This document shows, piece after piece, positions 52,848-58,997 of a stretch of DNA of 60,297 bases (positions are counted from its first letter, which is position 1; the number at the start of each line of letters is the position of its first letter). Source of the stretch: an uncultured Oligoflexia bacterium. GTDB lineage: Bacteria; Bdellovibrionota; Bacteriovoracia; Bacteriovoracales; Bacteriovoracaceae. Position numbers and translations under genes: made by a program. The notes under the pieces are model-generated. The model was not told the DNA's origin. It did no database searches and saw nothing but the letters and a program-made list of their open reading frames with translations. Where the stretch lies: positions 1 through 60,297 of the forward strand of contig CAJXPQ010000016.1 of the NCBI GenBank assembly GCA_913058265.1, written 5' to 3'.

Positions 52848-53579
52848 CTATTTAGCATGCTTCGTTTTGGGTTTGCGAATAGTAATAAGAAAATATACAG
52901 CAACTCCGGCCAATAGATGTTTTATACTATGCCCGCTATAGTCTATCGACTCAAAAATTTTAATATCTGAGCTCTCAGTCATCTTAGCTGCAACATAAAA
53001 AACGACAGCAAAAATGAGGTTTCTTGGACGCAGACTGCTAGAGGAAACAATGAATGCTATATAAAGCATCAATACTATCGGTGTGAATTGTACCCAAAGG
53101 TAGAACCTTAAATCATCGAATTTAACCCAGTAGAATAGAGTCGAGAGGCCAATAATTTGCGCCAGTAAAAGGTATAAATTTCTTTTAGTTTTCACATTAT
53201 GCATTTCAAAAAGAGCAAAACAGGTTAGAGAAATAAACCCCATTGTCATGGGCAGTCTATCCCAAAAAAGGGTTTGGTTATTAGGGGTGTAATGATAGTA
53301 AGCAGATCCAGGTCCTACAAGTAGAATACTTAGGATGAAGATGAGCCAGTTCAAGTCTTTTCTATTTGATTTTATATAATCTCTAAGGCCCATAGTCCCC
53401 AGAATAATAAAGACAATATTAGTCATAACATTATGAAAATTTTTAATGCCAAAGATTGTGTGTGCGTCAGCAAAGTTATGATAGGCAAGGCTTTGCGGCA
53501 TAGGATTAACAAAAAAGAAAATTACTATTAGTGGAACTAGTATTATAAATAGAGGCGCTAAGTTTTTTAGTTTATTCAT
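52848..53579 (-). CDS. CREST-superfamily membrane hydrolase (ceramidase-like)
   Basis: 243 residues with about seven membrane helices. VGPGSAYYHYTPNNQTLFWDRLPMTMGF and SIDYSGHSIKHLLAGVAVYF place Ser, two His near each other and an Asp in the arrangement of the CREST family (alkaline ceramidase, PAQR, Per1, SID-1), which are membrane hydrolases with a zinc site. The natural substrate is unknown; a lipid amide is likely. The gene follows the TauE-like gene by 25 bp on the minus strand. Confidence 0.75.
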   Translation of the reverse strand: MNKLKNLAPLFIILVPLIVIFFFVNPMPQSLAYHNFADAHTIFGIKNFHNVMTNIVFIILGTMGLRDYIKSNRKDLNWLIFILSILLVGPGSAYYHYTPNNQTLFWDRLPMTMGFISLTCFALFEMHNVKTKRNLYLLLAQIIGLSTLFYWVKFDDLRFYLWVQFTPIVLMLYIAFIVSSSSLRPRNLIFAVVFYVAAKMTESSDIKIFESIDYSGHSIKHLLAGVAVYFLITIRKPKTKHAK

Positions 53580-53604: not shown

Positions 53605-54342
53605 TTATTGTCTATTCGATGATTCATTCACATCAGATGAACTAGTGAAAACATCTTTATTTTTATACATGATGAAAATGCTCATAAAAACTAAAAAGAT
53701 CGCAAATCCTTTTTTCAATTTATCCGCTGGAACATAATTAACCATCTCTGATCCCATTAAAATACCTATAACAGTAAAAAATGTATAGCTAAGCATAAAA
53801 CTCCAGTCGATAGCAACTAAGTTCAAATAACTAATAAACCCAGCAATCGAGTTAAAAGTAATGATTAGTAGAGACGTTCCAATAGCCTGTTTCATGGGAA
53901 TATTACCTAGCAGTACAAGTGCTGGAACGATGATAAAGCCACCACAAACACCAACGAGACCAGTGAGAATACCAACAAATAAAGCTTCTATAGTAATGAG
54001 TTGATAGTTCAACATTGCTGTGTTCACTTTATTCTCGATGATCTCCTTCTTACCCTTGAACATAGAAAGACTGGCAATGAACATAACAACGGAGAATAAA
54101 ATTAACTGAACTGGTGCACTCAAGAAAGCGGATATCTTTGCACCTAAAAAAGTACCCACCATCGCCTTTTCTTTGCCAAACCGACCAATTCTTTTTGTTC
54201 TATATCCAACGGTTATATGCTCATTTTTAAATCCCGTAATTTCAATATTATTTCTCGAGCATGTATAATCTATGAGAGGAAACTTCTTAGCTTTATTCTT
54301 CGGTATAAGAGTGATTGTGCCAATAATCTCTTTTGCACGCAT
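53605..54342 (-). CDS. TauE/SafE-family membrane protein, truncated and chimeric
   Basis: The C-terminal 165 residues contain one complete TauE/SafE four-helix unit ([51 protein letters not shown]) and the tail of the first unit ([12 protein letters not shown]). The first half of that first unit, including its own glycine-rich loop, is missing. In its place are about 75 residues unlike TauE ([20 protein letters not shown]), in the frame of the exported-protein remnant further upstream. The frame is open up to the heptanucleotide repeat at 54461. No good ribosome binding site precedes the Met at 54342. It is probably a non-functional fusion left by a deletion, though translation cannot be excluded. 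Confidence 0.6.
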
Positions 54343-54460
54343 AATTTTTATAGAATGATCCTTATATAATGAGATTTCTAGATCTGTGTAAGCTGCTTTC
54401 TTGGATTGCAGAAAAGAGATAGTTTTATTTTTGTATACTATGAACTCATTTGTATTAATA

Positions 54461-54502
54461 TTCTTAATTCTTAATTCTTAATTCTTAATTCTTAATTCTT
54501 AC
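54461..54502. repeat. Heptanucleotide tandem repeat (TTCTTAA)n
   Basis: Five perfect copies of TTCTTAA followed by one variant, TTCTTAC. Seven bases per unit means each gain or loss shifts the reading frame. On the minus strand the array lies between two stretches that read as one exported protein. With two units the frame would be open through the array; with six it meets TAA at 54485-54487. Confidence 0.95.
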
Positions 54503-54703
54503 TTTGAGTCTTGCTTGGGGTAATAGTAAAACTTCACTATAGGGTAGCCATACTAATGAACTACTATCAATAATAGCTTTTATCTTAATATCAAAGTCCT
54601 TTGTAGATAAATCATTTCTTTTTTGCGCTATTGTTGCATCTTTTAGATCAATGAAATTAGCAGCAAATAAGTTTGAATTCAGTAAGAAATTAATATTAAA
54701 AAA
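54485..54703 (-). pseudogene. Remnant of an exported-protein gene, ended by the tandem repeat
   Basis: Directly after the stop of the REC-CheX gene and in the same frame, the minus strand reads a hydrophobic segment (NFLLNSNLFAANF, signal-peptide-like), then IDLKDATIAQKRNDL, IIDSSSLVWLPYSEVLLL and RLKVRIKN, and stops inside the heptanucleotide array. No ATG, GTG or TTG starts it; the nearest near-cognate codon is ATT. The reading resumes beyond the array as INTNEFIVYKNK, in the frame of the chimeric TauE gene. Family not recognised. Confidence 0.5.
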
Positions 54704-55567
54704 TTAAATAGCTTTAACACAGATTTGCATCCAAAAATTTCCCAGGTCAGAATGAAATGGAACTAATAATATAGGTATACTTTTGTTATTTATAACTCTA
54801 TGTCCTCGACCTCTCATGACAGATGGAACAGCTCTATCTAAGTTATAGCCTCTTTCTCTTAGGACTTCTTTTGTTTGGCCAAAAATAATATTGATGATTT
54901 CAGCGGCGCCATCTTGATTCTCAAGACTTATATCTCCAACACTTTCTTTTACCATTTGACCTATAATAACTTTATATGCCTCATCTTCAAAGGAGATTCC
55001 GATAGTTCCTTTAAAATATGGAGATGAAATTTCCAAAGTTCCACTTATATCGATTTCTAGTTCTTCTTCACCCAATAAGTAAGGTTTTTGTGCCTTTATA
55101 TTACTGACACCACATAGTCCATTGAGTGTTTTCATTGATGAATCAATAAATGGATTTATAAAATCAACATCTAATCTAAAGCGCTTTAATCTAAAATCCA
55201 GTAAAGAAAGATCTTTTATTTTACTGGAAAGGTCTTCATATGAAGTTGTTTTCTCCATGTATTCAATACCTTTTATACCTCTTGTCTCTGTCTTAGCTTT
55301 TTCTATCTCTTTGGTATAAAAAATAATTGGTGTGTGCACATTATTACTTGTTTCTCTGAGAGCTGCGACTAGTTGAACTCCTGAAATCTTTGGTAAATTA
55401 AAGTCTGTAATGACTACGTCAAAACTTTGATTTTTTGTTTTTTGATATGCCTGTACTCCATCTGAAGCTGACACGACAATCATTTGTGTGAGATTGGTTA
55501 GTTCGTTGACTAGCTGTTGCCTAACCTCGTCATCATTATCAACAATTAATAAATACTTCTTAGGCAT
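54704..55567 (-). CDS. Receiver protein with CheX-like domain
   Basis: 287 residues. Receiver domain 1-120: DNDDEV acidic pair, phosphoacceptor Asp in VVITDFNLP, Thr in IIFYTKE, and Lys in YMEKTTS. The C-terminal domain (about 135-285) resembles CheX: DGAAEIINIIFGQTKEVLRERGY has the E-x-x-N phosphatase motif on its helix. CheX-type domains remove phosphate from CheY-like receivers. The fusion suggests a chemotaxis or motility sink for phosphate. AGGAG precedes the ATG. It follows the MltD-like gene by 21 bp on the minus strand. Confidence 0.82.
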   Translation of the reverse strand: MPKKYLLIVDNDDEVRQQLVNELTNLTQMIVVSASDGVQAYQKTKNQSFDVVITDFNLPKISGVQLVAALRETSNNVHTPIIFYTKEIEKAKTETRGIKGIEYMEKTTSYEDLSSKIKDLSLLDFRLKRFRLDVDFINPFIDSSMKTLNGLCGVSNIKAQKPYLLGEEELEIDISGTLEISSPYFKGTIGISFEDEAYKVIIGQMVKESVGDISLENQDGAAEIINIIFGQTKEVLRERGYNLDRAVPSVMRGRGHRVINNKSIPILLVPFHSDLGNFWMQICVKAI

Positions 55568-55588: not shown

Positions 55589-57097
55589 TTAAAGCATAGA
55601 AATTTTTACAACTAAGCTTTGGCCAGGATAGATTGCTGTCGATCTTAGATTATTTAATTTTTTCAATTCTTTAATATTTGTTTTTGTGCGATTCGAAATG
55701 GACGATAAATTATCTCCAGCCTTCACCGTGTATGTTTTCTTTGTATGGGCAGGTACTTTTAACTTTTGACCTGCATAGATTTGTTTCTTAGATAATTTAT
55801 TCAAATAAACCAATTTCTTTATTCCTGTGTCAAATAGAGTCGCAATTCTAGTTAAATTATCACCTTTTTTAACAATGTATGAATACTTCGTTGTTGCAGT
55901 TGATTTAGAAGGTAAATATATCTTTTGCCCAATAAAAATTTTACTACCATTGATCTTATTTAGTCTTTTTAGAGTCGAAATTCGTACATTATAACGTTTA
56001 CTAATTGAAAAAAGTGATTCGTTGCTCCTAACTTTGTGTACTTTTGAGGTCTTATAGTTCGTGATTCTTTTTGTTTTAGATATGGTTCTTCTTGCTTTAT
56101 TCTTCGAGTATTGCGCCAATTGTCTTTTTGTACTCTTGCTTATTGATTTATAGTCTGGGATATAAAGATCAAATCCTTGTTTACCCATATAAGGTAAGTA
56201 GTCGCCTTTAAGGTCATGATTTAGTTGCTTTAATGTGTGAGTCGGAACTTTTATCTTGTTAGATAGCTTGCTTAAACTAATCGACTTATTGATCTTTATG
56301 GACTTAGTGGCACTGTAGAAATTATTCTTTGGTTTGGCGATTTTGATATTATATTTTTTGGCATTCTTATAAACATACATCGCCGCTAGTACCTTAGGTA
56401 CATAATTTCTTGTTTCTTTTGGAATGATTTTTCTAGTACTTAACTCGTAATACTTACGTGTGTTAGCACCTCTGATTCTTCGTATGATTCCGTATTCACC
56501 TGCATTGTATGCTGCAAGTGCAAGCTCCCATGATCCAAAAATATTGTATAGATCTTGAAAATATAATGCTGCTGCCTGAGTTGATTTGTAGATATTTTTT
56601 CTTTCATCAATACTTCTAGTAACTTTTAATCCATACCTTCGACCAGTTTCTTTTATAAATTGCCACGGCCCTACAGCATCTGCGTGGCTTCTTGCATGAT
56701 TTAAGTATCCACTTTCAATTAGACCTACATAGTATAGATCTTTTGGAAGTCCATACTTCTCAAAAGTGTCTTCTATAATTTTTCTGTAGCGCTCGCCATT
56801 TTTGGCAAAACGCTCAAATCCATTTTTATTTCTTGTGGTAAAATAATTAACCCAAAATTTATACTTTTTACTTTGATGATTCTTTAGGAAGGATTCATCT
56901 TTTTTTTGAATGCTACCAGTTTCAATGGCGGAATCAAGGCCTCTTTTGGCAGTGCTATCTTTGTAATTATTTATTATCGTCGTTGGTGTCTGTTTTTTCG
57001 CTGAAACATTCTTCTCTCCAAGTGAATTACTCGGCTTTATGTGGGCACAACCATTAATAATGATTATCGTAAAAGTTAGAATAAGTGTGTAATACAT
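55589..57097 (-). CDS. mltD: Membrane-bound lytic transglycosylase MltD-like, LysM repeats
   Basis: 502 residues. Lipobox INGC (Cys 17). SLT domain about 105-240 with catalytic Glu in VGLIESGY (E128), GPWQFIKETGRRYGL and AAYNAGEYG. A degenerate LysM lies near 270-315, and three clear LysM domains follow at about 352-396, 403-449 and 454-500, each with the pattern V..GDNL..I. It cleaves peptidoglycan between MurNAc and GlcNAc with formation of the 1,6-anhydro end. In a predator it could act on its own wall or on prey wall. The basic linker at 320-350 is unusual. Confidence 0.92.
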   Translation of the reverse strand: MYYTLILTFTIIIINGCAHIKPSNSLGEKNVSAKKQTPTTIINNYKDSTAKRGLDSAIETGSIQKKDESFLKNHQSKKYKFWVNYFTTRNKNGFERFAKNGERYRKIIEDTFEKYGLPKDLYYVGLIESGYLNHARSHADAVGPWQFIKETGRRYGLKVTRSIDERKNIYKSTQAAALYFQDLYNIFGSWELALAAYNAGEYGIIRRIRGANTRKYYELSTRKIIPKETRNYVPKVLAAMYVYKNAKKYNIKIAKPKNNFYSATKSIKINKSISLSKLSNKIKVPTHTLKQLNHDLKGDYLPYMGKQGFDLYIPDYKSISKSTKRQLAQYSKNKARRTISKTKRITNYKTSKVHKVRSNESLFSISKRYNVRISTLKRLNKINGSKIFIGQKIYLPSKSTATTKYSYIVKKGDNLTRIATLFDTGIKKLVYLNKLSKKQIYAGQKLKVPAHTKKTYTVKAGDNLSSISNRTKTNIKELKKLNNLRSTAIYPGQSLVVKISML

Positions 57098-57257: not shown

Positions 57258-58997
57258 ATGAAATATTTTCTTATTTTAACTTTTCTAGTATCTAGTATTC
57301 TTTTTGGTTGTAGTGCATTTAAGGGCCTACGCAAAGCTGACCTGATTGAGGGCAAAGATAAAAATACTTATGAGAGTTTTGGTAAAAAATATATGATTTC
57401 TACTCAAGGAGAAGCCACTACTAAGGCGGCCAGATTTGTCTTTGAGAAGGGTGGGAATATATTTGACGCTGCTACAGCTGCATCATTTGCAATTTCTGTC
57501 GAGAGACCTCATTCTACTGGAATCGGCGGTGGGGGCTTTATGCTTATTCACCATGAAAAATCGAACCATAAAGAAGCATATGATTTTAGAGAGATGGCGC
57601 CGCGTATGGCACATAAAGGAATGTTTCTTGATGCTAATGGAAAGCAAATTAAAGAGAAGTCACTTACTGGTCCATTTGCGTCGGGGACTCCCGGTCTTGT
57701 TGCTGGTGTTTTAGAGGTTCATAAACAATACGGTAAATTACCCCTTGAAGTCGTTATGGAGCCTGCCATTAAAATGGCGGAAATGGGATTTAAAATTTAT
57801 CCAGCTCTTGAAGTTGCTACTAAAGCAAAAGCGAAAAAACTTTGTAGCTATCCATCATCGAAAAAAATATTTTTGAATGAGGACTGTACTGCTAGAAAGG
57901 CCGGAACAATTCTATATCAAAAAGATCTAGCATTAACACTTAGAAAAATTGCAAAAGAAGGTTTAAGTGGTTTTTATGAAGGAGACGTTGCTAAAAAAAT
58001 TGTTGCTTCTCAAAAAAAATACAAGGGTCTAATGACCTTGAAAGATTTAAAGAATTATAAAGTTAAGAAAAGAGAACCTGTTGTTGGAACTTATCGTGGT
58101 TATAAGATCCTTTCAATGCCACCACCAAGTTCAGGGGGAACACATATAGTTCAAATACTAAATATTTTAGAGAATTTTGACTTGAAAGGTTTTGGTGCTC
58201 AAAGTGCCAAGTCGATTCATTTAACTTCAAGTGCTATGCAAATCGCCTTTGCAGATAGAGCAGAATATATGGGGGATAGTGACTTTAAAAATGTCCCGGT
58301 AGATACACTTATTTCAAAGAAGTATGCTAAAAGACTTGCCAATAAAATACCCCATGCAAGGGCCTTAAGTTCAAAAGATTTTCCAGTTTCAATGAGTAAG
58401 ATTATGCGTGAGCCAGAACATACTACACACTTTACGATTATGGACGGTGAGGGGAATGTTGTGACTTCCACCCAAACAATTAATGGTTGGTTTGGATCTT
58501 CATTAGTTGCAGAGGGGACTGGTATTGTGATGAACAATGAAATGGATGACTTCGCAAGTCACGTGGGGGGAGTTAATTTATTTGGTGCTATTGGTGGTAA
58601 AAATAATCTTGTAGAACCTAGAAAGAGACCCCTTAGTTCAATGAGTCCAACTATTGTATACAATAAGGAAGATAAACCTTTTTTAGCACTGGGAACCCCT
58701 TCAGGAACAAGAATTCTAACTTGTGTCATGCAAACTCTACTTAATGTTTTAGAGTATGATATGGGACTTTGGGATGCTGTTGCTGCAACTCGCTACCATC
58801 ATCAATGGAAACCGGAAGAGATTAGAATTGGACCTCCATTTTTTGATAAAGATGTTGAAGCTGAGCTTAAGGCGATGGGGCATAAGATAAATCACAAAGC
58901 ACTAGGTTGTAAGATTCAAGCGATAATGAAAAATTCTGACGGAAATCTTCATGGTGTTTCAGATCCTAGAGAAGAGGGAATGAGCTTTGGGATTTGA
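57258..58997 (+). CDS. ggt: Gamma-glutamyltransferase, lipoprotein form
   Basis: 579 residues. The signal ends in lipobox LFGC (Cys 18), so the enzyme is envelope-anchored rather than free in the periplasm. Family motifs: ERPHSTGIGGGGFMLI, PPPSSGGTHIVQ, the self-processing site with Thr at 389-390 (TTHFT), RPLSSMSPT and LGTPSGTRI. The residue before the nucleophile Thr is His, where E. coli has Asn. It releases glutamate from glutathione and gamma-glutamyl compounds, which fits prey-derived glutathione use. It starts 160 bp after the divergent mltD promoter and ends one base before the convergent thrE-like gene. Confidence 0.93.
   Translation: MKYFLILTFLVSSILFGCSAFKGLRKADLIEGKDKNTYESFGKKYMISTQGEATTKAARFVFEKGGNIFDAATAASFAISVERPHSTGIGGGGFMLIHHEKSNHKEAYDFREMAPRMAHKGMFLDANGKQIKEKSLTGPFASGTPGLVAGVLEVHKQYGKLPLEVVMEPAIKMAEMGFKIYPALEVATKAKAKKLCSYPSSKKIFLNEDCTARKAGTILYQKDLALTLRKIAKEGLSGFYEGDVAKKIVASQKKYKGLMTLKDLKNYKVKKREPVVGTYRGYKILSMPPPSSGGTHIVQILNILENFDLKGFGAQSAKSIHLTSSAMQIAFADRAEYMGDSDFKNVPVDTLISKKYAKRLANKIPHARALSSKDFPVSMSKIMREPEHTTHFTIMDGEGNVVTSTQTINGWFGSSLVAEGTGIVMNNEMDDFASHVGGVNLFGAIGGKNNLVEPRKRPLSSMSPTIVYNKEDKPFLALGTPSGTRILTCVMQTLLNVLEYDMGLWDAVAATRYHHQWKPEEIRIGPPFFDKDVEAELKAMGHKINHKALGCKIQAIMKNSDGNLHGVSDPREEGMSFGI

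Follow-up and report, generated by a model that had tools for sequence, protein, structure and literature searches.

In Haemophilus influenzae, heptanucleotide repeats in the promoters of hmw1A and hmw2A tune the expression of these genes, and in strain PittAA a heptanucleotide repeat of 14 units lies within the open reading frame of the 7.3-kb hmw1A gene, as described in PMC2651432. More generally, heptamers are over-represented among the simple repeats of many bacterial genomes, and polymerase slippage has been suggested as the cause in the account given in PMC4692102. The array reported here lies in what we call the window, that is, the whole stretch of 60,297 nucleotides analysed from an uncultured Oligoflexia bacterium (contig CAJXPQ010000016.1 of assembly GCA_913058265.1). 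Its closest published counterpart is the in-frame hmw1A heptamer of strain PittAA, with which it shares a heptanucleotide array within a surface-protein frame and an association with a frameshift (PMC2651432). Unlike H. influenzae, a species rich in phase-variable repeats, the window's genome showed no other such arrays in the sample surveyed; in addition, the window gene has six units rather than 14 and is without its start frame and 60% of its length. The promoter repeats of hmw1A and hmw2A, as characterized in the same report, also have a 7-bp unit that changes in length by slippage, whereas the window array lies in coding sequence and shows no promoter signal above shuffled sequences. Similarly, the heptameric intergenic repeats treated in PMC4692102 share the unit length and slippage as the suggested cause, but are described there as G-rich and as occurring many times per genome, whereas the window array is AT-rich and single.

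We consider the array, with a probability of roughly 0.85, to have expanded by slippage within a chimeric gene that is made of two truncated genes and died recently. Ordinary bacterial pseudogenes can form by frameshift plus partial deletion. The window locus resembles such pseudogenes in having several lesions in one gene, with intact relatives and intact neighbours, and differs from them in its unusually long, pure heptamer array and in its in-frame join to a second broken gene. The features of the locus are collected in Table 1.

Table 1. Features of the window around the heptanucleotide array (window positions; strand "." where none applies).
Feature	Position	Strand	Basis
Ceramidase-family membrane protein, tauE side of junction	52848..53579	-	Adjoins intact tauE in G003
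Truncated TauE/SafE exporter	53605..54165	-	Pfam TauE 73-236 of 237; aligns to residues 77-251 of intact G003 TauE (252 aa)
Fusion junction, codons AAG (as in X) then GCG (as in TauE)	54163..54168	-	Codons of 4 X and 3 TauE relatives compared
C-terminal part of X remnant, open, in frame into TauE fragment	54166..54477 (match 54163-54480)	-	Frames, relatives
Heptanucleotide tandem array, six perfect period-7 units	54460..54501	.	Tandem Repeats Finder, own-genome search, survey, random expectation
N-terminal part of X remnant, 72-codon open frame, TAA end inside array	54485..54703	-	Frames, relatives, start-codon check
X start frame, from a GTG that overlaps the end of the regulator gene, closed by TGA after 13 codons	54679..54720	-	Frame comparison with L019 protein, alignment
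Response regulator-CheX gene, intact, neighbouring X in relatives	54704..55567	-	Family scan, relatives' loci
LysM/SLT transglycosylase gene, intact, neighbouring X in relatives	55589..57097	-	Family scan, relatives' loci

The array and the reading frames across it

Tandem Repeats Finder placed the array at 54460-54501, with period 7, 6.0 copies, a 100% match and the consensus ATTCTTA. The unit reads TTCTTAA on the plus strand and TTAAGAA on the coding strand. The initial annotation had described six units with a variant last one; the six units are indeed present as a perfect period-7 array, and the variant unit appears in the register TTCTTAA from 54461, one base after the Tandem Repeats Finder start, in which the sixth unit ends in C. 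At 42 bp, the array is far longer than the longest period-7 runs obtained when the window was simulated 60 times with a first-order Markov model (maximum 18 bp, mean 15.6 bp). At least three exact units of the array word occurred at a single place in the whole 3.23-Mb assembly. Further, in a survey of 460,297 bases, comprising the window and 20 stretches of 20 kb, no exact period-7 array reached three units apart from that of the window. The array is pure, its unit is not a multiple of three, and it lies within a gene, all of which would be expected of a contingency locus. Neither a hairpin nor a promoter element was retained as an explanation of the array, as its single-stranded DNA folded no better than shuffled sequences (z 0.75) and the four promoter-like matches at the locus equalled the shuffled mean of 4.0. 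The top-scoring tandem array of the survey sample lay elsewhere in the same genome (contig C7, L109 8283-8506) and consists of AAG/GCT codon-rich units of 12/27 bp; it is probably an ordinary lysine/alanine-rich repeat protein.

On the minus strand, the array separates two frames that match one protein, and the frame arithmetic of the initial annotation was correct. The upstream frame, ending in RLKVRIKN, meets a stop at 54485-54487, inside the array, and the downstream frame, which contains INTNEFIVYKNK, begins past another stop, at 54478-54480. Whichever frame is read through the array, a TAA recurs every 21 bp; the initial annotation had remarked that longer arrays contain this stop even where they restore the frame. 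The continuous frame predicted for a two-unit form also bore up, since it aligns with relatives without gaps and at the ancestral length: the repeat site comprises 18 residues in the two-unit reading of the window, and 18 in 20 of 28 relatives, 19 in six and 17 in two. In the coding strand, the seed is a near-duplicate within the codons for K-V-R-I-K-N. This near-duplicate and the ancestral length of the two-unit reading suggest, as the simplest account, an origin of the array from about two units. Two further properties of these frames had been overlooked. None of the 72 codons of the upstream frame is an ATG, GTG or TTG start, and the downstream frame continues into a different gene, tauE; between the array and the TauE end, 290 codons are open.

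Protein X, its conserved locus and the lesions in the window

The joined halves match the N-terminal approximately 170 residues, or 40%, of a protein of about 430 aa from Halobacteriovoraceae/Bacteriovoracaceae that is here called X. Matches to X were found in 16 of 58 other genomes searched. Fifteen of these matches are uninterrupted frames of at least 410 codons, and the sixteenth is weak (E 2e-4) and contains stops. A scan of named genomes yielded 23 X loci, all in genomes or MAGs labelled Halobacteriovoraceae, Bacteriovoracaceae, Halobacteriovorax, Bacteriovorax, Oligoflexia, Deltaproteobacteria, Bdellovibrionota/Bdellovibrionales or simply bacterium. Together with the 15 loci from the search of 58 genomes, and after removal of duplicates and of one locus with too short a match, these gave 29 distinct X frames, of which 28 were aligned, one partial frame being dropped.

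At E<=1, two of three X members tested had no match in Pfam and two of three had none in NCBIfam; the remaining member had only sub-cut-off matches in Pfam, and one member had a sub-cut-off match in NCBIfam. An AlphaFold2 model of X based on 20 relatives was confident (mean pLDDT 89.2) and predicts an N-terminal helix corresponding to a signal peptide, beta-rich domains to about residue 241 and long strands from 251 to 431. The best Foldseek matches of this model were outer-membrane barrels, for example Ail, OmpX, OmpA and OpcA, with low TM-scores by query length (0.13-0.28) and 7-14% identity, so that any choice of a closest barrel fold would be provisional. Thus, X is likely an exported protein with a predicted C-terminal outer-membrane beta-barrel. 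Its invariant cysteines correspond to C160 and C179 in L070 (X at L070 3140-4435). As a predicted outer-membrane protein family whose gene is conserved next to that of a LysM transglycosylase in several members of this group, X might merit a study of its own.

In relatives, the conserved gene order is gamma-glutamyltransferase, LysM transglycosylase, often a CheX regulator, and then X. The transferase gene (ggt), the transglycosylase gene and X occur together in eight of the 23 loci, and the regulator lies beside X in five. At L072 of genome G001, no regulator-CheX gene separates the LysM gene from X; the regulator gene is therefore a variable member of the cluster. The window shares this gene order, including at 57258-58997 a gene that, from its sequence, we take to encode gamma-glutamyltransferase, and the X remnant is accordingly an orthologue in its place. 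None of the 23 X loci from other species carries a period-7 array of at least 18 bp.

Against these intact orthologues at the same locus, the window gene shows frame disruptions as expected of a pseudogene. Relatives start X in the frame of a GTG that overlaps the end of the regulator. In the window, 13 codons of this start frame resemble VLKLFKFLAILSY of G003 and are followed by a stop at 54679-54681; homology resumes after them in another frame, which indicates that the signal peptide of X has been frameshifted.

The array is followed by another lesion at 54165/54166, where the match to X ends and a TauE/SafE exporter begins in frame. Comparison with four X and three TauE relatives places the junction between adjacent codons. 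The join removes the barrel of X (its C-terminal 60%) and the N-terminus of TauE, so that the C-terminal two thirds of TauE remain, covering Pfam positions 73-236 of 237 only rather than the full-length two-repeat membrane domain. Full-length X and TauE were used as queries against nine genomes, and neither an intact X nor either lost half was found elsewhere in the window's genome: a 432-aa relative of X aligned at the remnant only, and no orthologue of TauE residues 1-76 was found. The one other TauE match in this genome is a 30% paralogue on contig C3, covering residues 73-241. In relatives, X and tauE are 543 kb apart on one contig (G013), and they lie on different contigs in the other genomes in which both were detected. 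The ceramidase-family gene adjoins tauE in the window, as it does in G003. The other gene flanking tauE in G003, presumably a persulfide-dioxygenase-like metallo-hydrolase, has a relative on another contig, C1, of the window's genome, which does not date the event. At 53605-54342, the window reads as a TauE/SafE fragment fused in frame to a foreign N-terminus, and automatic annotation would probably call this a 245-aa gene.

Changes in the remnants themselves were also compared with relatives. Three of 12 near-invariant X positions are changed in the window (R54P, R63Q and C158Y in remnant numbering), as against a maximum of two in any of the 28 relatives. The X branch of the window is 0.64 long compared with 0.48 in its nearest relative, and the corresponding regulator values are 0.256 and 0.248, figures that make for weak tests of constraint. 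Invariant positions are changed at a similar rate in the TauE fragment (6 of 52) and in the intact regulator (10 of 89); relaxed selection on the TauE fragment was therefore not adopted as part of the explanation. The 290-codon frame is still open, and the decay would thus be recent or incomplete.

Probable gene decay and its alternatives

Since X is damaged in two places besides the array, the locus looks like ordinary gene decay and not like an on/off switch. In the ancestor, X, exported and with a predicted C-terminal outer-membrane beta-barrel, would have followed the LysM transglycosylase and the CheX-type regulator, and a chance imperfect two-unit stretch within its K-V-R-I-K-N codons may have served as the seed. 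In the lineage of the window, X would have lost the frame of its signal peptide, a rearrangement would have removed the barrel-coding 60% and joined X to the middle of the tauE gene, and slipped-strand mispairing would have enlarged the seed to six units. The array, the three lesions, the intact X of relatives and the lack of the lost parts elsewhere in the assembly are direct observations, and we infer from them that slippage was at work, that two units came first and in what sequence the events took place.

The initial annotation had proposed either a repeat expansion that killed the gene or a phase-variable switch now in the OFF state. The former comes close to what was found, except that the gene has at least two lesions besides the array, and these may have arisen in any order. 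The latter is not supported. According to it, the number of units would toggle an exported protein between ON (two units) and OFF (six), and the pure 42-bp array, with a unit that is not a multiple of three, does lie within a frame that in intact relatives encodes a predicted surface barrel, and genes for such proteins are often subject to phase variation. However, the ON product would comprise the N-terminal part of X only, with no standard in-frame start, no barrel and a TauE tail, and the frame could be open only at two units or below, which would be unusually short for an ON state. With the barrel-coding part lost and no start in the frame that is left, no change in unit number can restore X, and no unit number gives a complete gene that could be started. 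Because X is beyond restoration in this way, and given the absence of similar arrays from both the 460-kb sample and the 23 X loci of relatives, phase variation here is unlikely, and the proposed switch in particular highly improbable. A pure, out-of-frame array in the frame of a surface protein resembles a switch, and comparison of the whole gene with relatives shows otherwise, which calls for caution with arrays of this type.

The same absences weigh on a related proposal. X may have been a contingency locus in the lineage of the window that later died by truncation, leaving the array as a relic; the lesions may have arisen in any order and the array is unusually long for this genome, yet the lack of such an array at the X loci of other species and of any other array of that kind in the genome sample makes this history improbable. 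It is very unlikely that the locus was or still is a slippage-prone site at which a marine relative of predatory bacteria switches a surface protein, the truncated fusion of X and TauE being either a late product or an alternative one. In the literature searched, which consisted of general phase-variation papers, no heptamer contingency locus was found for this bacterial family, and the present locus was not named.

An assembly artefact at the X-TauE junction would leave X and TauE whole and only the array, and perhaps the shift in the signal peptide, as real. The separation of X and tauE in relatives, on separate contigs or far apart, and the 25 contigs of the window's assembly speak for such an error. 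The missing halves would then be expected elsewhere in an assembly that is 99.64% complete, and neither was found; moreover, decay is indicated independently by the missense substitutions at near-invariant positions of X and by the frameshifted signal peptide, and we regard an artefact as improbable too. Least credible of all is that the 245-codon frame from 54342 encodes a new functional chimeric membrane protein with the array in its leader. The frame of 290 codons is open through the junction and an ATG is present at 54342, but TauE lacks its first approximately 76 residues there and the promoter-like matches do not exceed those of shuffled sequence.

The same heptamer in other genomes of the family

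Among 129 genomes of the family, (TTCTTAA)3 was present in three, including that of the window, and the four-unit form occurred in the same three. Two control words of the same composition were found in none of the 129, while their reversed forms were found in one and two genomes, respectively; hence, there is no clear enrichment of the array word in the family. The reversed control of the target word itself is uninformative, since it is a rotation of the same unit. A family-wide repeat element was therefore rejected as an explanation, the word being rare and not clearly special compared with the controls. In the two other genomes, G075 and G028, the arrays lie between genes, that is, outside coding sequence. 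The former (L122, G075:C70:7936-7963) is a 5.1-unit array just upstream of a gene that is presumably ribosomal-protein-L9-like, and the latter (L124, G028:C22:59368-59395) is a 4.6-unit array just upstream of another gene. In both, the coding-strand word is (GAATTAA)n.
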